DNA from: Bacillus xiapuensis
Lineage (GTDB): Bacteria; Bacillota; Bacilli; Bacillales; Domibacillaceae
DNA length: 51,183 bases
Direction of reading: 5' to 3'
Assembly (NCBI RefSeq): GCF_002797355.1
Contig: NZ_KZ454940.1
Location: forward strand, 763,022 to 814,204
The notes below the pieces were generated by a model. It ran no database searches, was not told the DNA's origin, and saw nothing but the letters and a program-made list of their open reading frames with translations. Shown piece by piece: positions 13,069 to 27,557 of this stretch. A program made the translations under genes and the position numbers. Within the stretch, counting starts at the first letter, position 1. The number at the start of each line of letters is the position of its first letter.

Positions 13069-13158
13069 AGCGCGCAAATCCAATGGTTCTGCACTCCAAT
13101 TCTATCTTGGATTTTCACATTTCAATGGCGTCTTCGTCCCCATGCCTTAAGAATAAAG

Positions 13159-13212
13159 CGAATCTTCAAACAGCGGGAGATTTTCTTTCATTCCCTGCTG
13201 TTTGTTCGCTGA
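13159..13212 (-). repeat. Dispersed structured repeat, partial inverted copy (copy D)
   Basis: Read on the minus strand, this carries the 3' part of the repeat seen at 17245, 18305 and 27443. It has an AACAGCAGGGA / TCCCGCTGTT stem around an ATGAAAGAAA-type loop, followed by TTTGAAGATTCGCTTTATT. The middle hairpins are shortened or lost. The rest of the 286-bp ksgA-yabG gap holds only the ksgA hairpin and a sigma-K-like -10. Confidence 0.65.
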
Positions 13213-13275
13213 ACGCAGCCCCCGTATGCCGGATAAACTTTCTGCCTAGCTGAAGGGCCAATGTGCCGGCTTTTG

Positions 13276-17209: not shown

Positions 17210-17244
17210 GGCGGTTTAAGGCTCTCTCTTCAGGAATGAGGAAA

Positions 17245-17362
17245 GATGCCCGATTCGTTCGGATCTGCACGATGCGGGTGATAAAGGCGCTATGATGGCA
17301 GCTTTTGTCCTTCTTGTCAGCAGGGGATGACTATCCCCTGCTGTTTGAAAATTCATTTTATC
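17245..17362 (+). repeat. Dispersed structured repeat, copy A
   Basis: Homologous to 18305-18428 and 27443-27557. Hairpins in order: CCGA/TCGG, CTGC-ACGAT-GCGG, GATAAAGGCGCT/AGCTTTTGTC, and a perfect 11-bp CAGCAGGGGAT (17318-17328) / ATCCCCTGCTG (17333-17343), then TTTGAAAATTCATTTTATC. The last hairpin probably also ends purR transcripts. Confidence 0.85.
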
Positions 17363-17396
17363 AAGAGTGTTTGATTATTCATAAGGAGAGATGGCT

Positions 17397-17771
17397 ATGA
17401 GAACAGTATCGACTGAAAAAGCACCAGCTGCAATTGGACCGTATTCGCAGGGGGTTCTAGTCAATAATTTGTTTTTCAGCTCCGGTCAAATCCCATTAAC
17501 AGCTGAAGGAGTATTGGAATCAGGAGGCATTCCTGCTCAAACGCACCAAGTGTTCAAAAATTTAGAAGCCGTGCTCAGCGAAGCGGGGGCTTCGTTTGAA
17601 ACGGTCATTAAAACGACAGTATTTTTGACTGATATGGAGGACTTTGCTGCTGTAAATGAAGTATACAGCCAGTATTTTGCTGACCATAAGCCTGCCCGTT
17701 CCTGCGTAGAGGTGGCCAGGCTGCCAAAGGATGCAAAAGTAGAAATAGAAGTCATCGCACTCGTGAAATAA
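17397..17771 (+). CDS. ridA: RidA family 2-iminobutanoate/2-iminopropanoate deaminase (YabJ)
   Basis: Hydrolyses reactive enamine/imine intermediates released by PLP dehydratases, protecting PLP enzymes. It has 124 residues from ATG 17397, the length of the family. The substrate-binding arginine lies in [15 protein letters not shown], and GPYSQG near residue 15 is the N-terminal signature. ATG 17391 is in frame but too close to AAGGAG (17383-17388), so 17397 is preferred. In B. subtilis yabJ is cotranscribed with purR and spoVG; here a terminator follows at 17759. Confidence 0.93.
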
Positions 17772-17788
17772 CCACGAGTGTATTTTTT
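17759..17788 (+). terminator. ridA terminator
   Basis: ACTCGTG (17759-17765) and CACGAGT (17773-17779) pair around the stop codon, followed by a T-run. Confidence 0.85.
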
Positions 17789-17828
17789 TGGAATAAAACA
17801 GAAATATTTCAAATTTTTTTAATCAAAA

Positions 17829-17858
17829 GCAGGAATATTATAAATATTATTGAATAAG
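17829..17858 (+). promoter_or_regulatory. Sigma-H promoter of spoVG
   Basis: GCAGGAATA and TTGAATAAG fit the sigma-H elements (RnAGGAwWW and RnnGAATWW) and resemble the B. subtilis spoVG promoter (AGCAGGA...GGAATTG). The flanks are very AT-rich, as expected of an AbrB-repressed promoter. Confidence 0.75.
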
Positions 17859-17899
17859 TAGTTAGGCTTTATATCTAGGGGGAAAGGGTGATAACAAGA

Positions 17900-18193
17900 A
17901 TGGAAGTAACTGATGTGAGATTAAGACGTGTAAACACGGATGGCCGAATGAGAGCAATTGCTTCAATTACATTAGATAATGAGTTTGTGATTCATGATAT
18001 TCGCGTAATTGACGGCAATAACGGGCTGTTCGTCGCAATGCCAAGCAAGCGGACACCGGACGGCGAATTCCGGGACATTGCTCATCCAATTAACTCCAAC
18101 ACACGCGGTAAAGTCCAAGATGCTGTTTTAGCAGAATATCACCGCTTAGGAGAATTGGAAGAAGTGGAACTAGAAGAAGCGGGGGCTTCTTAA
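17900..18193 (+). CDS. spoVG: SpoVG
   Basis: A 97-residue DNA/RNA-binding regulator that affects asymmetric septation and sporulation in Bacillus and virulence genes in Staphylococcus. It is near identical to B. subtilis ([45 protein letters not shown]), with an acidic C-terminal tail. The start is ATG 17900; an upstream in-frame GTG at 17888 lies in the ribosome binding site AAAGGGTGA. It has its own sigma-H promoter and a terminator. Confidence 0.97.
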
Positions 18194-18207
18194 TAATCAA
18201 TTGCATC

Positions 18208-18239
18208 AAGAGCCTACTTCCAAGGTAGGGCTCTTTTTC
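18208..18239 (+). terminator. spoVG terminator
   Basis: AAGAGCC pairs with GGCTCTT with an inner TAC/GTA, followed by a T-run. Confidence 0.88.
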
Positions 18240-18293
18240 TATTTTCAGCGCTTTTATAGCGTGCATGACGGATGCGCAGCTGCTTCCATTAAT

Positions 18294-18428
18294 CCCGCAT
18301 ACAAGATTGTCCGATTCGTTCGGGCCTGCACGATGCGGGTGACAAAGGTGCTGCGATGGCGGCCTTTGTTCATCTTTTCAACAGCGGGAATGAAAGAAAG
18401 CTTCCGCTGTTTGCAGGCTTGCTTTATC
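18294..18428 (+). repeat. Dispersed structured repeat, copy B
   Basis: The core begins at 18305. An outer stem CCCGCAT (18294-18300) / ATGCGGG (18333-18339) encloses CCGA/TCGG. Then ACAAAGG (18342-18348) pairs with CCTTTGT (18363-18369), and AACAGCGGGAA (18380-18390) with TTCCGCTGTT (18402-18411) around TGAAAGAAAG. The outer stem is replaced by a different but still paired sequence in copy C. Confidence 0.85.
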
Positions 18429-18494
18429 CCTTTTGGCCCCTTTCGGCCGGCTGTTCTTAACCCTTGACAAAAAAATGTCACTTTTTTCAGCGCC

Positions 18495-18523
18495 TTGAAA
18501 TGCAGGCCTTTTTAAGATATATT
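18495..18523 (+). promoter_or_regulatory. Sigma-A promoter of glmU-prs
   Basis: TTGAAA (18495-18500) and TATATT (18518-18523) are 17 bp apart, about 35 bp before the glmU ATG. Confidence 0.75.
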
Positions 18524-18557
18524 CAATATGGAATAAAAGGCTATAGGGGGACCCCAA

Positions 18558-19931
18558 ATGACAAATATTTTTGCTGTCATTCTCGCTGCAGGCAAAGGCA
18601 CTCGAATGAAGTCTAAGCTATACAAAGTGCTCCACCCTGTTTGTGGAAAACCGATGGTAGAACATGTAATTGATCAAATTTCTGATTTACATACAAAAAA
18701 AATTGTCACAATTGTTGGCCATGGAGCGGATGAAGTGAAAGGCTACCTTGGCGAAAAGAGTGTATTTGCTTTACAGGAAGAGCAGCTCGGAACCGCTCAT
18801 GCTGTGATGCAGGCGGAAGAAATTCTCGGAAGCGAACACGGCTGTACTCTCGTTGTGTGCGGTGACACTCCGCTGATTAAATCGGAAACTATGGAAGCGC
18901 TTGTAAATTATCATCAAAAGCAAAACGCAAAAGCAACCATTTTAACTGGTTACACGGATGCCCCGGACGGTTACGGAAGAATTATCCGAAACGAAGACGG
19001 CATGGTAGAGCGGATCGTGGAGCATAAAGATGCAACCGCTGAGGAACGAAAGGTCAAAGAAATTAACACCGGTACGTATTGCTTTGACAATCGCTCGCTG
19101 TTTGAAGCGCTGAAGAAAGTATCCAATGACAATTCACAGGGCGAGTATTACTTGCCGGATGTGATTGAAATATTAAAAAGCGCTGGAGAAATTGTTGCGG
19201 CTTATCAAACGGAAGACTTCAGTGAAACGCTTGGCGTCAATGACCGGGTTGCTTTAAGCCAAGCGGAAGCGATTATGCAAAAGCGTATAAACCGCAAGCA
19301 TATGCAAGACGGTGTCACGCTTATCAGCCCGCAAAATACGTATATCGGTTCAGATGTAAGCATCGGCGCTGATACGGTAATTTATCCGGGCACTATTATT
19401 TCCGGCCACACGGTGATTGGAAGGGATTGTGAAATTGGCCCGAACAGCGAGATCAGCAATTGCCGGATTGGTGATCGCACGAAGGTTCGGCAATCGGTTG
19501 CCGCCGACAGCGAGATTGGCTCAGGTGTCAACATCGGGCCATTTGCTCATATTCGTCCGGCATCAGAGATCCATGATGAAGTGAAAGTCGGCAACTTTGT
19601 AGAGATTAAGAAGTCCGTTTTCGGAAAAGGCAGCAAAGCTTCCCACTTGAGCTATATTGGCGATGCGGAAGTGGGAGCGAATGTCAATATCGGCTGCGGC
19701 TCCATCACGGTTAACTATGATGGAAAGAACAAGCATTTAACAAAGATCGAAGACGATGTGTTCATTGGCTGCAACTCTAATCTTGTGGCCCCTGTGACTG
19801 TCGGAAAAGGAGCTTATGTTGCAGCCGGGTCAACCATTACGGACGACGTTCCAGGCGAAGCTCTATCGATTGCCCGTTCCCGTCAAGTAAATAAAGAAAA
19901 CTACGTCCAAAAATTAAATTTTAATAAATAA
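18558..19931 (+). CDS. glmU: Bifunctional GlmU
   Basis: Makes UDP-GlcNAc in two steps: acetylation of glucosamine-1-P, then uridylyl transfer. It supplies peptidoglycan and teichoic acid synthesis. It has 457 residues. The N-terminal pyrophosphorylase domain has [19 protein letters not shown] at residues 9-27. The C-terminal half is a left-handed beta helix of hexapeptide repeats, with the acetyl-CoA region near GNFVEIKKS and [11 protein letters not shown] 18558 has AGGGGGA upstream. prs follows with only 14 bp between, so UDP-GlcNAc and PRPP synthesis are co-expressed. Confidence 0.98.
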
Positions 19932-19945
19932 TGCGGAGGTCCAAC

Positions 19946-20905
19946 ATGTGTAACCAGTATTTAGATCCAAGCTTGAAAATTTTTGCTCTTAATTCCAACA
20001 TGGCTCTTGCTAAGGAGATAGCAGAATCGATTGGTGTGGAATTAGGTCAATGCTCTGTGAAACGTTTTAGTGACGGAGAGATTCAAATCAACATCGAAGA
20101 AAGCATTCGCGGCTGCGACGTCTATGTCATCCAATCCACTAGTGCGCCGGTCAATGATAATTTAATGGAAACATTGATTATGATTGATGCGTTAAAACGA
20201 GCATCTGCCAAAACGATTAACATTGTTCTCCCGTACTATGGTTATGCACGTCAGGACCGTAAAGCCCGTGCGCGTGAACCGATTACCGCCAAGCTAGTCG
20301 CCAACTTGTTTGAAACAGCTGGTGCTACTCGCGTCATCACTCTGGATCTGCATGCTCCGCAAATCCAAGGATTCTTTGATATTCCTATTGACCATTTAAT
20401 GGGCGTGCCGATTTTAGCGGATTATTTTAAGAAAAAAGGTTTCAAAGGCGAAGACATTGTGATCGTCTCTCCTGATCATGGCGGAGTGACACGTGCCAGA
20501 AAAATGGCCGATCGTTTAAAAGCGCCAATCGCCATTATTGATAAACGCCGCCCGCGGCCTAATGTGGCAGAGGTAATGAATATTGTCGGAAATATTGACG
20601 GAAAGATTGCGATTCTAGTTGATGATATTATTGACACGGCAGGGACCATTACATTAGCGGCAAATGCATTGGTAGAGAATGGGGCGAAAGAGGTCTATGC
20701 AAGTTGTACGCATCCCGTGCTATCCGGACCTGCGATCGAACGCATTCAAAACTCCAATATTAAAGAGCTTGTGATCACAAACTCTATCGCTTTACCGGAA
20801 GAAAAGAAAACAGATAAAATCGTCGAACTTTCAGTTGCTTCCCTCATTGGAGAAGCGATAATTCGCGTGCATGAAGAGCAATCCGTAAGCACGTTATTCG
20901 ATTAA
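19946..20905 (+). CDS. prs: Ribose-phosphate pyrophosphokinase
   Basis: Makes PRPP from ribose-5-phosphate and ATP, for purines, pyrimidines, NAD, histidine and tryptophan. It has 319 residues, class [17 protein letters not shown], the flexible-loop [10 protein letters not shown] and the PRPP loop [11 protein letters not shown] are intact. The start is ATG 19946 after GCGGAGG; the in-frame ATG 19931 overlaps the glmU stop and lies upstream of the ribosome binding site. Its product is the effector sensed by PurR in this window. Confidence 0.98.
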
Positions 20906-20973
20906 TGGAGAGCCTAAATGCAAGGTGACCGGGAACAATCCGAAAAATAGAATCGCTGCTTGCACATAAAAAC

Positions 20974-21018
20974 ACACCGAAGAATGCAGATTTCCCGTCA
21001 TTCTTCGGTGTTTTATTT
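20974..21018 (+). terminator. prs terminator
   Basis: ACACCGAAGAATG pairs perfectly with CATTCTTCGGTGT, followed by TTTATTTT. Confidence 0.92.
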
Positions 21019-21206
21019 TGGCGGATTTCATCTGTTTACTTATTTTTTAAGAAGAAAAGCGGAATTGATCCGATTTTTAAAGTCTGCTTGAAACACATTT
21101 GCGGGTGGAAAGAGGACGAGTGAGGAGGAGAGCGGATGTTCATCAAGCAGCATGTCCGGAACAGCTTCTTTTCGCAAGAGGACTTGAAAGAATTTCTGTT
21201 TATTAG

Positions 21207-21232
21207 GTTTAATGGCTGAAAGCTTAGGGAAT
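21207..21232 (+). promoter_or_regulatory. Sigma-B promoter of ctc
   Basis: GTTTAA (21207-21212), 14 bp, then GGGAAT (21227-21232) matches the general-stress sigma-B consensus GTTTAA-N12-14-GGGWAT. ctc was the prototype sigma-B gene in B. subtilis, so the stress control is conserved. Confidence 0.85.
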
Positions 21233-21297
21233 AGATAAGTTAAGGCATTGGAAAGATAGAATAATTAGATCACTACATAGGAGGGTGAGTTACTCTA

Positions 21298-21903
21298 ATG
21301 AGTACTTTACTTGAAGTGAAAAAAAGAGAAAATTTCCAAGGATCAGGCTTAACGAAGCTTCGCGAGGAAGGCTATTTCCCTGCGATTGTGTATGGGAAAG
21401 GAAAAGAAAATGATGCCGTTTATGTCAATGAAGGGGACTTTTTCAAGGTGATAAAAGAAGTTGGCCGCAACGGAGTGATTTCTTTAAATGTCGGCGGCAC
21501 ATCTTATAATGTGGTTTTGCAAGATTATCAGCAAGATCCGATCAAAAACCACATCGTTCATGCGGACTTTCTGGCAGTCGATTTATCTTCTGAAATGACA
21601 GCGAATGTTCGAGTGGAATTAGAAGGGGAAGCGGCTGGTGCAAAAGAAGGCGGCGTTGTTCAACAGCCGTTGTATGAATTAGCTGTTACAGCGAAGGTCA
21701 GTGAATTTCCAGAACGCATCTTAGTGAATATCAGCGAATTGAAAATCGGAGAGACCATCACGGTAGGAGATATTCGCAAACAATATTCATTCACAATTGC
21801 CCATGAAGACGAAGAAGCCATTGTTTCGGTATTGCCGCCGGCTGTAGAGAAGGATACAAAGGAAGAAACAGCAACAGAAGAAGCAGCTGAAACAGCAGAA
21901 TAA
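21298..21903 (+). CDS. ctc: General stress protein Ctc / ribosomal protein bL25
   Basis: A 5S rRNA-binding ribosomal protein of the bL25/TL5/Ctc family, 201 residues. The N-terminal bL25 domain (to about residue 92) contains LREEGYFPAIVYGKG and is followed by the Ctc-type beta domain, then an acidic, low-complexity tail (about 185-201). It associates with ribosomes under stress. ATG 21298 has GGAGGGTGAG upstream. The sigma-B promoter and strong terminator (21927-22004) make it a single-gene unit. Confidence 0.95.
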   Translation: MSTLLEVKKRENFQGSGLTKLREEGYFPAIVYGKGKENDAVYVNEGDFFKVIKEVGRNGVISLNVGGTSYNVVLQDYQQDPIKNHIVHADFLAVDLSSEMTANVRVELEGEAAGAKEGGVVQQPLYELAVTAKVSEFPERILVNISELKIGETITVGDIRKQYSFTIAHEDEEAIVSVLPPAVEKDTKEETATEEAAETAE

Positions 21904-21926
21904 ATGATAAGCGTTAGATTGCTTAC

Positions 21927-22004
21927 AGGATTAGCTTCCGCCTATTTGCTGGAGGATGTCATCATCCAAAAGGATTGGGCTGGCGGAAGCTAATCCTTTT
22001 TTTT
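21927..22004 (+). terminator. ctc terminator with long loop
   Basis: AGGATTAGCTTCCGCC pairs perfectly (16 bp) with GGCGGAAGCTAATCCT, followed by TTTTTTTT. The loop is about 38 bases and includes a GGATGtcaTCATCC-like inner hairpin. Confidence 0.92.
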
Positions 22005-22116
22005 GTTAGAAAGAGTAAATCAGCAGATTTAAAAGTATAATTTCGCGGCTATGTACGTTATACTTGAGATAACTGCGTGCATTTAGTGAGTTTAGAAGGA
22101 ATTTGAGGTGCAGAAG

Positions 22117-22677
22117 ATGAAGTTAATAGTAGGCCTTGGAAACCCTGGAGCTGCCTACGCAGGTACAAGGCATAATATTGGATTCGATGTTATTGATGAG
22201 CTGGCGGAACGTTATCAAGTGCAGCTGACGGAAGCAAAGCATAAAGGAGTTTACACCATCATTCGCAAAGGCTCAGAGAAAGCGATTATTCTTAAGCCTC
22301 TCACATATATGAATCTGTCTGGAGAAAGCATTGGTCAAGTGATGCGCTATTATGATCTAACAGCGGAGGATTTGCTCGTGATTTACGATGACCTGGATTT
22401 GCCTGTAGGGAAAATCCGGCTGCGTCAAAAAGGCAGCGCTGGAGGGCATAATGGAATCAAGTCCACTATTGCCCACGTTGGAACGCAAAACTTTAAAAGG
22501 ATTCGCATCGGAATTGACCGTCCGACAGGAATGATGAAGGTGCCCGATTATGTGCTTGGCCGCTTTACAGCAGAAGAGCGGGCCGTGATGAAAGAAGCCG
22601 TAGCCGCGAGTGCGGATGCAGCGGAAGCATGGCTCGATCAGCCGTTTTTAGAAGTAATGAATCGCTTCAATAAATAG
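22117..22677 (+). CDS. pth: Peptidyl-tRNA hydrolase (SpoVC)
   Basis: Recycles tRNA from peptidyl-tRNA dropped by ribosomes; essential, and known as SpoVC because a mutation blocks sporulation. It has 186 residues. N9, H19 (in GTRHN) and the aspartate of YDDLDLP form the active centre, and GSAGGHNGIKS is intact. The start is ATG 22117; the in-frame GTG 22108 is part of the GAGGTG ribosome binding site. fin and mfd follow, the same order as in B. subtilis. Confidence 0.96.
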   Translation: MKLIVGLGNPGAAYAGTRHNIGFDVIDELAERYQVQLTEAKHKGVYTIIRKGSEKAIILKPLTYMNLSGESIGQVMRYYDLTAEDLLVIYDDLDLPVGKIRLRQKGSAGGHNGIKSTIAHVGTQNFKRIRIGIDRPTGMMKVPDYVLGRFTAEERAVMKEAVAASADAAEAWLDQPFLEVMNRFNK

Positions 22678-22751
22678 AATGAATAATGATCTTCCTTCAT
22701 GGCTATACTAATGATGACAATAGAAGAAGTTGGCAGCGAAGGAGGAAGAAG

Positions 22752-22982
22752 ATGCCTATTCATTACATTTGCCGCCATTGCAGAACAACGGTTGGGAGCT
22801 TGAATCAATCGGTTATATCAGCTAAACAGTTAGGGATTCATGCACTGACGGATCAGGAAAGAACCGATATGGTTCATTATGATCAAGACGGCAGCATAAC
22901 GATAACGACAATATGTGAAGATTGCCAGGAGCTTCTTGAGAGAAATCCTGAATTTCATCAATATGATTATCTGATACATTAA
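22752..22982 (+). CDS. fin: Anti-sigma-F factor Fin
   Basis: A 76-residue zinc-binding protein (YabK) that inhibits sigma-F and speeds the switch to sigma-G in the forespore. CRHC near residue 7-10 and CEDC near residue 56-59 form the zinc-ribbon ligands, and the length equals the B. subtilis protein. The start is ATG 22752 with GGAGGAAG upstream; an in-frame extension to 22686 has no ribosome binding site. Together with CsfB at 165, the window encodes two anti-sigma proteins acting on sequential sporulation sigma factors. Confidence 0.92.
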   Translation: MPIHYICRHCRTTVGSLNQSVISAKQLGIHALTDQERTDMVHYDQDGSITITTICEDCQELLERNPEFHQYDYLIH

Positions 22983-22986
22983 AGTA

Positions 22987-23014
22987 GCTTTGGATAGCGA
23001 TCCAAAGCATTTTT
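22987..23014 (+). terminator. fin terminator
   Basis: GCTTTGGAT pairs perfectly with ATCCAAAGC around a 4-base loop, followed by TTTTT. Confidence 0.9.
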
Positions 23015-23108
23015 CTGTTTCATTACTGACAGATTTTGATGGAGCAAAGGGAAGCTTTTGCTTTGGGAGGATAGAAGCATCTGTCCGTTATAGGGGGAGG
23101 AACAACGC

Positions 23109-26100
23109 GTGAAGAGCTTACAAAATATATTTTTGCAAAATAATGATATTCAATCCATTTTACAAGGGCTGTCAGCTGGAATGAAGGAGCAGCTGGCTTC
23201 AGGGCTGTCAGGTTCTGCGCGGGCTTTGTTTATTGCAGCTGCTTACCAGCAAACGAATAAGCCGATTTTAGTCGTCACGTATAATTTGTTGCAAGCGCAA
23301 AAATTGCATGATGACTTGCTGCAGTTTATCGACGAGCAAGAAGTGTATTTGTATGCTGCTGATGAACTGATTGCAGCCGAGATCAGCATTGCCAGTCCGG
23401 AATTGCGGGCGCAGCGAATTGAAGTATTAAATCACATCGTCAATGTAGGCAGAGGCGTATACATTGTGCCGGTTTCAGGAATCCGGAAACTATTGCCGCC
23501 GAAACGAGATTGGCAAGCTTTGCAAAGGACATTGGCTGTCGGAGAAGAAGTGGATCATGATGAAATGATTCGTACATTGATTGCGATGGGCTACCAGCGG
23601 GCGGATATGGTTTATGCTCCAGGTGAATTTAGCGTGCGCGGGGGCATTATCGATATTTATCCGCTCACCATAAATGATCCCATCCGCATCGAATTATTTG
23701 ATACAGAAGTGGATTCCATCCGCACCTTCTCCATTGAAAATCAGCGTTCACTGGAGAATCAGTCTTCCATTAGCATAGGTCCTGTGTCAGAAACGCCGCA
23801 TCATCCGGCACATTTAGTGCGGCTCGCCCAGCGGCTGGAAAATGCCTTGGAGGATACGTTAAAGAAAGTGAAAAATGAAAAATCGCGGGAGTTGTTAGAA
23901 AAGAATATCAATTCCGAAATTGAACGACTCAAGCAAGGAACCGCGATAGAAGGAATTGCAAAGTATGCGGAAATGATGTATGAGCAGCCGATGAGCCTTG
24001 CGGATTACTTGCCGGAGAATGGATTGGTGTTTTTTGATGAAATCAGCCGCATCCGGGAGATGAACGATTCGCTTGAGCAAGAGGAAGCGGAATGGTATAC
24101 GTCTCTTCTTGAAGAAGGAAAAGTTGTCCATGACACGAAGCTGTCCTACACTTTCAGCGAGGTCATCACACATATAAGACAGCCAATTATTTATCTTGCT
24201 TTATTTTTACGCAAGATTGCCCATACCCATCCGGAGAACATCGTGAACTTCTCATGCCGGCCGATGCAAAATTTTCACGGACAAATGAACGTGCTGCAGA
24301 CGGAAGTAGAGCGATGGAAAAAGCTTGGCATGACCGTTGTATTTCTCGGAGAAACGAAAGAGCGTCTTAAGAAAATAGGAAGAACTCTGCAAGATTACGA
24401 GATTGAAGCGGCAATTGCTCCTGAAAGTAATCAAATTTCCGAGCGGGCTATCCAAATTGCAGAAGGTTCGTTAACAGCAGGTTTTGAATTTCCGGCGCTG
24501 AAGCTGGCCGTTATTACAGAACAGGAGCTGTTCAATAAAAAAACGAAGAGAAGCAAGAGCCGGCAAAAGCTATCGAACGCTGAACGGATTAAGAGTTATT
24601 CAGAGCTTAAGCCCGGTGATTATGTCGTTCATGTCAATCATGGAATTGGAAAGTACTTGGGGATTGAAACACTGGAAATCAAAGGTGTGCACAAAGACTA
24701 TTTAAATATCAAGTACCAAGGAACCGATCATTTGTATGTTCCAGTTGAACAGATTGAGCTCGTTCAGAAATATGTAGGTTCAGAAGGAAAGGAACCGAAA
24801 ATTTATAAGCTTGGCGGCAGTGAATGGAAACGGGTGAAGAACAAGGTCCAGTCATCCGTTCAAGATATTGCTGATGATTTGATTAAGCTTTATGCGGAGC
24901 GGGAGGCAGCAAAGGGGTATGCTTATTCGCCGGACGGAGATATGCAGCGTGAGTTTGAGATGTCCTTTCCTTATGAAGAAACGGAAGACCAGCTTCGTTC
25001 CATACAGGAAATTAAATATGATATGGAGAAGGAGCGGCCGATGGATCGTCTTTTATGCGGGGATGTCGGCTATGGAAAAACCGAGGTTGCGATTCGGGCT
25101 GCTTTCAAAGCGATCACAGACGGCAAGCAAGTGGCCTTTCTTGTTCCGACTACGATTCTTGCCCAGCAGCATTATGAAACGCTGAAGGAGCGATTTCGTG
25201 ATTTTCCCATAACGGTCGGATTGCTGAGCCGTTTCCGTTCCCGGAAGCAGCAAACCGAAACGCTGAAAGGGCTAAAAAGCGGTACAGTAGACATCGTAGT
25301 CGGCACACATCGGCTGCTGTCCAAAGACGTTCAATATCATGATCTGGGTCTGCTCATCGTTGATGAAGAGCAGCGCTTCGGCGTGACGCATAAAGAAAAA
25401 ATAAAAAAGCTAAAAACAAATGTCGACGTCCTCACCTTGACGGCTACACCGATTCCCCGCACGCTTCATATGTCGATGCTCGGCGTGCGAGACTTGTCGG
25501 TCATTGAAACACCGCCGGAGAATCGTTTTCCTGTGCAAACTTACGTGGTCGAGCATAATCCGGCTTTGGTCAGAGAGGCGATTGAGCGGGAGCTGGCCCG
25601 GGACGGACAAGTTTTTTATCTATATAATCGCGTGGAAGATATTGAGCGCAAAGCTGACGAAATCTCCATGCTAGTGCCGGATGCTAGAGTGACCTATGCG
25701 CATGGCCAGATGACTGAACGAGAGCTGGAAAGCGTCATTTTAAGCTTTTTAGAAGGAGAATCAGACGTATTAGTGACGACAACAATCATCGAGACCGGTG
25801 TGGACATCCCTAATGTGAACACGCTGATTGTTCATGACGCGGATCGGATGGGGCTATCCCAGCTGTATCAAATCCGTGGCCGCGTCGGCCGTTCCAACCG
25901 TGTGGCTTATGCTTACTTTATGTACAGAAAAGATAAAGTCCTTTCAGAAACGGCGGAGAAGCGTCTGCAAGCTATTAAAGAATTCACAGAGCTTGGGTCA
26001 GGGTTTAAAATTGCGATGCGCGACTTATCCATCCGCGGAGCCGGTAACCTGCTCGGTGCGCAGCAGCACGGATTTATCGACTCTGTCGGCTTTGACCTGT

Positions 26101-26624
26101 ATTCGCAGATGCTGAAGGAAGCGGTCGAGCAAAGACGCGGAAATGTCCAGAAAGAGAAGGCCGCACCATTCGAAGTGGAAGTGTCTATCGATGCATATAT
26201 TCCGGATGCATACATTAAAGACAGTCAGCAAAAAATCGAAATGTACAAGCGTTTCCGCAGCGTTGAGACATTAGAAGAGGTAAGTGAGCTGCAGGAGGAA
26301 ATGATCGACCGCTTTGGCGAATATCCTCGTGAAGTGGAGAGCCTCTTTAAAGTAGCGGAAATGAAGGTGTACGCGACAGCTGTTCAGCTAGAGAAAATCA
26401 AGCAGGACAAGGACCAAGTATTCATTTTGATGACACCAGAAGGAACACAGCGGATGGATGGATCCAAGGTGTTTGAACTATGCAGCAAGCATGGGCGGGC
26501 TGTCGGTCTCGGAATGGAAAATAACCAATTGAAAATTTCCATTGATATAAAAAGAATGGAAGCGGATGCGTGGTTTGCTATTGCTTATGACATTATAAAA
26601 AATCTGGAGCATGCTAGAAAATAA
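23109..26624 (+). CDS. mfd: Transcription-repair coupling factor Mfd
   Basis: A DNA translocase that removes RNA polymerase stalled at lesions and recruits UvrA. It has 1171 residues. Domains in order: UvrB-like N-terminal region (1 to about 350), RNA polymerase interaction domain ([20 protein letters not shown] near 500), RecG-like helicase lobes with GDVGYGKT (K657), the DEEQ box DEEQRFG and the motif VI RGRVGRS, then the C-terminal TRCF autoinhibitory domain. GTG start at 23109 with GGGGGAGG upstream. Confidence 0.98.
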
Positions 26625-26742
26625 CGTTCAAAATGCATAGAACTTCCCGTATGAAGGATAATAACAATAATGCGACAGAGATAACGAAGACATCGTTTAT
26701 TCGCTGTCAAATAATCATCTGATGAAAGTGAGGCAACATAAG

Positions 26743-27279
26743 ATGAAGGCAACTGGTATTGTTCGTCGAATTGATGATTTAGGGCGGGTGGTGATTCCAA
26801 AGGAAATCCGCCGCACATTGCGAATACGGGAAGGAGACCCTCTGGAAATTTTCGTGGACCGCGATGGGGAAGTTATTTTAAAGAAATACTCGCCGATTAG
26901 TGAACTGGGTGATTTCGCTCAGGAATATGCAGAGGCTTTATTTGATAGCTTAGGCAGCTCTGTGCTGATTTGCGACCGCGATGCAATTATTGCATCTGCA
27001 GGAGTATCGAAAAAGGAGTACATTAATAAAAGTGTAGGGCAATTAATTGAAACAGCCATGGAAGACCGTCAGCCCGCGCTGAATAATCCGCAAGGGCAGG
27101 TTTCGCTGGTCGATGGGCGCGAAGAGCAAGTCCAATCATACGCGCTGGCGCCCATCATTGCCAACGGGGACCCTATCGGATTAGTGTTACTGTTTTCCGC
27201 TGATCGAACGCTGAGTGAAATTGAGAAAAAATTAGCCGAAACGGCAGCAGCATTTCTGGCTAAACAAATGGAGCACTAG
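26743..27279 (+). CDS. spoVT: Stage V sporulation regulator SpoVT
   Basis: A forespore regulator that tunes sigma-G genes. It has 178 residues: an AbrB-like swapped-hairpin DNA-binding domain (1-55, identical to B. subtilis over most of its length) and a GAF domain (56-178) whose ligand is unknown. The start is ATG 26743 with GTGAGG upstream; the in-frame ATG 26722 gives a 7-residue extension not seen in relatives. A terminator follows at 27291. Confidence 0.97.
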   Translation: MKATGIVRRIDDLGRVVIPKEIRRTLRIREGDPLEIFVDRDGEVILKKYSPISELGDFAQEYAEALFDSLGSSVLICDRDAIIASAGVSKKEYINKSVGQLIETAMEDRQPALNNPQGQVSLVDGREEQVQSYALAPIIANGDPIGLVLLFSADRTLSEIEKKLAETAAAFLAKQMEH

Positions 27280-27290
27280 CATAAAAGACG

Positions 27291-27318
27291 GGAAGCGGCA
27301 AAGGCTGCTTCCTTTTTT
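27291..27318 (+). terminator. spoVT terminator
   Basis: GGAAGCgGC pairs with GCTGCTTCC (one mismatch or bulge), followed by TTTTTT. Confidence 0.85.
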
Positions 27319-27405
27319 CGTGCAAATCCTTTACATTTGTAGTAGCTTGTTTTATCCCGCGTGCAAGAGGACGTAAGCCTCTCCCTCTGCGAGAATGGAG
27401 GCGGA

Positions 27406-27557
27406 GAAGCAAAAGTCAAAGCGGGTGAGAACACGGCACCTGCATGCCCGACTCGTTCGGGCCTGCGCGACGCAGGTGACAAAGGCGCTGCGGCAGTCTT
27501 TGTTTTTTTATCAGCGGGGATGAAAGAAAGCACCGGCTGTTTGAAGGTTTACTTTAT
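27406..27557 (+). repeat. Dispersed structured repeat, copy C
   Basis: The longest copy. CACCTGC (27437-27443) pairs with GCAGGTG (27472-27478), enclosing GCCCGA/TCGGGC. ACAAAG (27479-27484) pairs with CTTTGT (27498-27503), followed by a T-run. Then CAGCGGGG-ATGAAAGAAAGCA-CCGGCTG and TTTGAAGGTTTACTTTAT follow. The 5' module (CAAAAGTCAAAGCG, from about 27409) is also seen in decayed copies near the tRNA genes. Confidence 0.85.

Follow-up and report, generated by a model that had tools for sequence, protein, structure and literature searches.

Repeats in the Window

The stretch of Bacillus xiapuensis DNA analyzed here (51,183 nt of contig NZ_KZ454940.1, positions 763,022–814,204; hereafter the window) contains four related repeats, which are decayed remnants of a non-coding, non-autonomous mobile DNA element, called E. 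Copy D (13153–13237, minus strand) is located between rsmA and yabG, copy A (17215–17361, start approximate) between purR and ridA, copy B (18253–18427) between spoVG and glmU, and copy C (27351–27557) between spoVT and a SpoVB-like gene, the last three on the plus strand. Gene names are taken from NCBIfam, with the SpoVB-like match being below its cut-off. A preliminary description of the window had noticed these repeats, placed all four between genes, as the neighboring genes confirm, and read them as either a new structured RNA family or a small non-autonomous element in the manner of bcr1 of Bacillus cereus. The repeat is real and does not amount to a new RNA family. A repeat search finds an 80-nt core common to copies A, B, and C (ungapped identity to A of 83% for B and 61% for C), an additional 53-nt 3′ block shared by B and C at 83% identity, and an alignment of copy D in reverse at the 3′ stem. 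As the extents of copies B and C show, the element reaches beyond the roughly 115 bp that had been aligned.

Copy C carries a left TTTAT (27351–27355) followed by the element proper (27356–27557), which itself terminates in TTTAT, and it matches the element consensus over its full length (query 1–209, 83%, expectation value 3e-54). The middle module of copy C (27461–27504, minus strand) aligns to modules that Rfam names Bacillaceae-1 RNA in related species; an Rfam scan returned no match to this RNA in copy C itself. The 3′ or right-end hairpin (27510–27542, plus strand) corresponds to helix 7 of the consensus, which covaries across species. Copy B begins at a left TTTAT (18253–18257) and has degraded 5′ stems and a diverged Bacillaceae-1 RNA module (18325–18378, minus strand; 24.4 bits against a gathering score of 35, expectation value 0.79). 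Copy A retains a right TTTAT (17357–17361), is flanked on the left by TTTAA (17215–17219), and has mostly lost its left-end stem; by reading of the alignment, little of the 5′ stems proper to the family remains in A or B. Copy D is a short deletion derivative that runs from its left TTTAT (13237–13233) to a right end at 13153, and it consists of a left-end stub joined to the right-end hairpin, with no middle module. Single-stranded folding in the window was computed for copy C alone, which gave a z score of −0.87, with 35 of 200 shuffles folding as well. Because its single-stranded fold is no better than that of shuffles, copy C, the sole full-length copy in the window, is decayed. In the genome of B. 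xiapuensis, E is old and probably inactive.

Anatomy of the Element

Copies in a sister species (genome G003) are near-identical and have sharp edges, with TTTAT followed by CCCGCATTAACGGG at the left and TTTCACTTTAT at the right. A fresh copy starts after TTTAT with CCCGCAT, ends in TTCACTTTAT, is about 154 bp long, and carries hairpins towards each end. Inspection of aligned copies reveals no terminal inverted repeats, the ends being CCCGCAT and TTCACTTTAT, and for this lack E was rejected as a classical miniature inverted-repeat transposable element (MITE). The left TTTAT is present in 28 of 30 left-end-anchored copies of G003, and the right TTTAT in 25 of the 29 for which a right end was found. 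The near-equal conservation in this set of 30 led to rejection of the idea, drawn from three Lentibacillus and some G003 copies, that the left pentamer varies and the right one is fixed, which would have excluded a target duplication.

The element occurs in discrete sizes. Of the 117 left ends in G003, 100 are listed. A listed right end could be assigned to 79 of these, and the resulting pairs fall into classes of 48–50 bp (12/79), 103–106 bp (5/79), about 154 bp, which is the commonest, and about 216 bp, with single cases of 277, 340, and 341 bp. A 673-bp pair was rejected as one element, as it joins two separate short copies. In the 49-bp form, the two outermost ends of E meet at a short shared ACCCCCAC, as expected of a deletion between short repeats. 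The window shows the 216-bp form, which is E with the middle module.

Copies are also found in tandem and nested. Five of seven pattern matches are tandem junctions (L137, L142, L149, L157, and L355), at which one TTTAT closes a copy and opens the next. At G366:C1:785173-785437, three right ends lie exactly 121 bp apart in a tandem array of short E copies, one junction of which was read (L355). In G003, another palindromic repeat (AGCTGCGGGCGTTAGAGGCTCGAGGTC...) is inserted in an E copy (L232:1500-1840), and L122 carries the same repeat. A supposed variant left end in L121 and L122 was discarded, since in the L121 locus, the same place as L232, another repeat is inserted in E, and L122 shares the sequence. 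A guanidine-I riboswitch (83 bits) directly adjoins a 154-bp E copy (L230:1360-1459). The sharp TTTAT-bounded ends, the near-identical copies in the sister species, the tandem and nested copies, and the discrete sizes support well the reading of the repeats as a small non-autonomous, bcr1-like element.

Structure and Covariation

The RNAalifold consensus of 18 copies from 14 genomes has seven helices, with 41 pairs in total. In the 17 distinct rows, which come from these 14 genomes, 91.8% of the paired cells can pair, compared with 83.7 in shuffled alignments (sd 0.7), and double changes are found in 20 of the 41 pairs, compared with 10.0 (sd 2.0). Structures in which the partners were slid pair at no more than 46%, a comparison that favors the consensus fold, which was derived from the same alignment. 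Helices 1, 2, and 7 belong to E and covary, helix 3 straddles the junction, and helices 4–6 belong to the module. The last stem, for which the preliminary description had seen pairing maintained, is helix 7 and thus a covarying stem of the family; the proposed outer stem (CCCGCAT/ATGCGGG in one copy and CACCTGC/GCAGGTG in another) falls outside the consensus fold. One fresh copy of the sister species, folded as single-stranded DNA, gives a z score of −7.0, with none of 200 shuffles as good. Immediately 5′ of the right hairpin, the tetranucleotide TAAC is present at 22 of 27 right ends from four genomes.

The Middle Module

Rfam scans of ten loci in related species yield 10 matches to Bacillaceae-1 RNA (RF01690; 62–80 bits, gathering score 35) in nine of them, the tenth locus (L230) being a 154-bp copy without the module, and no match to the ends of E itself. 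In the window, nothing reaches the gathering score, copy B being the only one with a match. The preliminary description had recognized no described family in the repeat; the middle module does match a named RNA in related species, which speaks against the new-family reading, and in the window it does so only below threshold. A weak match to the Rfam family Ysr141 in the mfd region was taken as chance.

The module is a passenger of E. Relative to E, it is antisense in six of the nine loci (L116, L137, L170, L172, L175, and L232), sense in two (L189 and L192), and solo in one (L195). Modules of this kind were also seen outside E (L188, L190, L194, L195, and L196, the Rfam scan being for L195 only), where by eye they adjoin other repeats or palindromes, and these occurrences suggest that the module moves independently. 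We know of no report of a function for Bacillaceae-1 RNA. In a 2010 tabulation, it is marked "Y" for RNA and "n" for cis-regulatory (PMC2864571).

Abundance and Spread

Copy B, used as a query, finds at least 40 places in the 3.26-Mb genome of B. xiapuensis rather than just a few (expectation values 1e-72 to 2e-8; 103 first-look candidates), and with later finds added 50 places match some part of E. The repeat is much more frequent than chance would produce; an 18-letter core pattern likewise occurs six times, compared with none for its backwards control. A consensus query matches 11 of 41 genomes, the genome of the window included and all five of the genus among these. In a wider search with the G003 consensus (expectation value at most 1e-5), matches are found in 107 of 397 genomes and 50 of 135 genera of the order, a count that mixes E with the passenger module; among the 77 of these genomes with rows listed, an end of E was recovered in 55 and the module alone in 22. 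A right-end pattern with up to two mismatches is present in 10 of 10 genomes, picked from the order-wide matches mostly for their many candidates, with 126, 127, 130, 88, 15, 83, 5, 59, 48, and 73 copies and zero for the control in each. E thus exceeds 100 copies in some genomes. It is almost always intergenic, as only one of 45 copies in G003 and one of 60 in G189 were flagged as overlapping an open frame from within.

An exact 23-base pattern at the border of E and the module retrieved 24 stretches from named genomes; the first exact pattern, with 34 fixed bases, had found nothing in the same genome contigs. Ends of E are present in Lentibacillus persicus, Lentibacillus sp. CBA3610, Sporosarcina koreensis, Bacillus sp. 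FJAT-42315, Bacillus sp. REN10, and Bacillaceae bacterium SAS-127, and the stretches from L. halodurans and L. populi match around the module only. Viral contigs gave one stretch each for the right-end and left-end patterns (exact matches only), phage records gave no match to E at an expectation value of 0.01 or below, and no B. cereus-group record was among the plasmid matches listed (60 of 150 in each search). One plasmid record labeled Klebsiella grimontii (CP079755.1, 221561-221624) carries the right end of E (82% over 68 nt) together with an AbrB/SpoVT-type gene, a combination suggestive of a mislabeled Bacillus-type plasmid. No description of E was found in the titles and abstract beginnings that searches of openly licensed literature listed, a scope that leaves out the main bcr papers, and E may be described elsewhere. 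The repeats in the window are decayed members of a mobile family that occurs in many genera of the order.

Orientation Relative to Replication

When replichores are assigned from GC skew, the orientation of 76 of 83 copies in genome G189 agrees with the replication fork (p about 1e-15). Gene contexts were read for 60 of these 83 copies, nine of which were not scorable. All 16 copies in symmetric gaps, between convergent or divergent genes, follow the fork, as do all four copies between genes that both oppose it, two of them near a replichore border, and 28 of 31 in co-directional contexts. In G259, 76 of 88 copies point with the fork when borders are taken from skew and 79 of 88 when they are taken from the copies themselves. 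On contig 1 of G319, 27 of 37 copies do so (p = 0.008; the count omits eight copies on other contigs), and in G003, 74 of the 100 listed copies (of 126). A fork-directed orientation holds in four of the five genomes tested, in several regardless of the neighboring genes. If positive skew marks the leading strand, the strand of E that reads from TTTAT to TTTAT is the lagging-strand template. Elements of the IS200/IS605 family are described as preferring the lagging-strand template and as mirroring the direction of replication (PMC5371812, PMC6006769).

Proposed Mode of Transposition

The hairpins towards both ends, the absence of inverted repeats, the fixed pentanucleotide, and the fork-linked orientation point to "peel and paste" movement of the IS200/IS605 type. 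E is probably a non-autonomous IS200/IS605-like element that is mobilized in trans as single-stranded DNA. As part of the lagging-strand template, the top strand of E would be released in single-stranded form, and its end hairpins would be bound by a Y1-type (HUH) transposase presumed to be supplied in trans. Cut 3′ of TTTAT at its two ends, E would then form a single-stranded circle and re-insert 3′ of another TTTAT. Of the two readings offered in the preliminary description, the RNA reading is mostly wrong; the mobile one is correct and can be sharpened.

Matches to the Y1 transposase family PF01797 are found in 9 of 12 element-bearing genomes, and the genome of B. xiapuensis has eight such matches. 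Those in this genome and in G003 resemble IS605 TnpA or fragments of it, as judged by length and partners only. The IS200/IS605 elements of B. xiapuensis (G000, C1 and C2) are more than 98% identical and include five intact 163-residue Y1 transposase frames; at two of the five copies with ends read (L058 and L059), the tnpB-region matches are interrupted or shortened. Of 67 transposase loci compared, four have an E-like match at an expectation value below 1 (L160, L162, L333, and L338, of which the first two were read), about what copy density leads one to expect by our own estimate. Among the loci examined, no Y1 transposase gene has matching ends in the same genome. In G003, 21 listed left ends lack a listed right end; 19 of them have a diverged right end nearby, one is truncated, and for one a right end was seen.

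Several observations weigh against an IS200/IS605-type mechanism. With regard to the enzyme, the element-rich genomes G338, G349, and G319 have no PF01797 match, none of the 67 transposase loci has the left end of E on one side and the right end on the other, and no gene-carrying, autonomous copy was found among the listed left ends of G003. The five intact IS605 copies of B. xiapuensis with ends read are inserted 3′ of TTAC and end in TCAA, and these elements were rejected as helpers of E for the differing target and end. The right end of E is also TTTAT, which may be the end of the element itself and fits a 5-bp target duplication equally well. TAAC is present at only 33 of 67 right ends in G189, 12 of 43 in G003, and 6 of 21 in an order-wide set, and it is replaced in 216-bp forms; TAA near the left hairpin is found in 33 of 47 copies in G003 but in 4 of 70 in G189. 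With regard to orientation, the replichore borders of G189 and G003 were set after the copies had been seen, with GC skew as a guide, and the skew of G003 beyond 1.65 Mb consists of a handful of points. The bias in G003, taken from the contexts of 44 copies on one arm, is weaker than that in G189 (12 of 16 symmetric, 3 of 5 opposing, and 16 of 23 co-directional copies follow the fork). The genome of B. xiapuensis itself shows no significant bias, with 26 of 47 copies pointing with the fork and three ambiguous; among its best-preserved copies the count is 13 of 18, with one ambiguous (p = 0.10). Places that hold only the module, the strand of which is uninformative on E, may blur this count, and the old age of E in this genome is another possible reason. 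In addition, other insertion sequence (IS) families are described as having a replication-linked orientation via the beta-clamp (PMC5371812), and IS200/IS605 elements of Halanaerobium are reported to lack an orientation preference (10/22; PMC7290912).

The alternative that survives best, which we nevertheless consider rather unlikely, is that another enzyme moves E, either a DDE transposase that leaves 5-bp TTTAT duplications or a site-specific recombinase with TTTAT as its crossover core. The TTTAT on both sides of fresh copies and the three genomes without a PF01797 match fit this explanation, as does the mobility of B. cereus bcr repeats, which has been ascribed to a recombination-like mechanism around TTTAT (PMC6542083), and a replication-linked orientation is not unique to IS200/IS605 elements. 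On the other hand, the ends of E combine a lack of terminal inverted repeats with a strict pentanucleotide, covarying hairpins are located towards both ends, and the lagging-strand polarity in G189 and G259 is very strong. An equally tentative proposal, offered as speculation, is that E is the remnant, reduced to its ends, of an order-wide system of single-stranded-DNA transposition, the enzyme of which would be neither a canonical TnpA nor a RAYT and might be a host single-strand nuclease or ligase. In that case, the Bacillaceae-1 "RNA" would be another mobile hairpin module, independent of E and carried in either direction by E and by other repeats, and not a conventional small RNA.

It is improbable that E is a functional structured RNA dispersed as a regulator of many genes, the RNA reading of the preliminary description. 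Family-level covariation and the identity of the middle module as a curated RNA family are in keeping with such a role, and bcr copies are transcribed in two B. cereus strains (84/165 and 62/155; PMC3446304). Hairpins used in transposition would, however, show covariation equally, and the end hairpins fit single-stranded DNA transposition. Furthermore, the full-length copy in the window folds no better than shuffles, the module is antisense to E more often than sense, internal deletions are frequent, and copies within one species are near-identical. Likewise very doubtful is the explanation that the orientation bias stems not from a preference at insertion but from selection, acting on polar sequence signals or on transcription read-through. 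In its favor, genes and replication are largely co-oriented at the sites, and most copies in the co-directional contexts of G189 agree with the fork. Against it, the copies in G189 that lie in convergent or divergent gaps or between fork-opposing genes follow the fork without exception, and the corresponding copies in G003 mostly do so.

An IS200/IS605-like mode of movement would supply a mechanism, namely the replication-coupled movement of a gene-less hairpin element, for an intergenic feature that is very abundant in many Bacillus-like genomes, and a genomic explanation for Bacillaceae-1 RNA. The strong fork polarity in the absence of a visible transposase is the interesting part, and it opens a search for a seemingly missing enzyme that has more than 100 substrates in some genomes. 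It also serves as a warning that what looks like a dispersed structured "RNA family" can be a substrate of DNA transposition.

Comparison with Known Systems

The lagging-strand-template polarity of E is the same as that described for IS608 and ISDra2 (PMC5371812, PMC6006769). Elements of the IS200/IS605 family carry a guide tetranucleotide at the hairpin base, of which the TAAC at the right hairpin of E is reminiscent, by analogy only (PMC7290912). Similar to PATE and other ends-only IS200/IS605 derivatives, E is non-coding and has hairpin ends, no inverted repeats, and a fixed target pentanucleotide (PMC7290912). The main differences are that no parent IS with the ends of E was found among the loci examined and that E has far more copies and a wider spread than the one PATE-like sequence described there. 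REP and REPIN sequences, which are paired with RAYT, are likewise hairpin repeats without genes, presumably mobilized in trans by Y1 enzymes (PMC3733652); in contrast, the hairpins of E lack a GTAG tag by inspection, and E is longer and two-ended. The likeness to Bacillaceae-1 RNA is confined to the middle module of the 216-bp form, which belongs to RF01690 in related species; this module is a mere passenger, falls below threshold in the window, and leaves the ends of E without an Rfam match.

The title of the 2004 report by Okstad reportedly calls bcr1 "specific to the B. cereus group," and by this title bcr1 differs from E, which is found in many genera. Bcr1 has been counted among MITEs, a class said to have 15–30-bp inverted repeats (PMC3733652), which E lacks. 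Its length is given as 147 bp, or 167 in a later survey (PMC2267715), and E shares with bcr repeats a tie to TTTAT, a length of 100–400 bp, and a dispersed distribution. Compared by description rather than by sequence, the described element nearest in kind to E is bcr1 of the B. cereus group, as both are short, high-copy, intergenic, structured, non-coding, mobile, and tied to TTTAT (PMC6542083).

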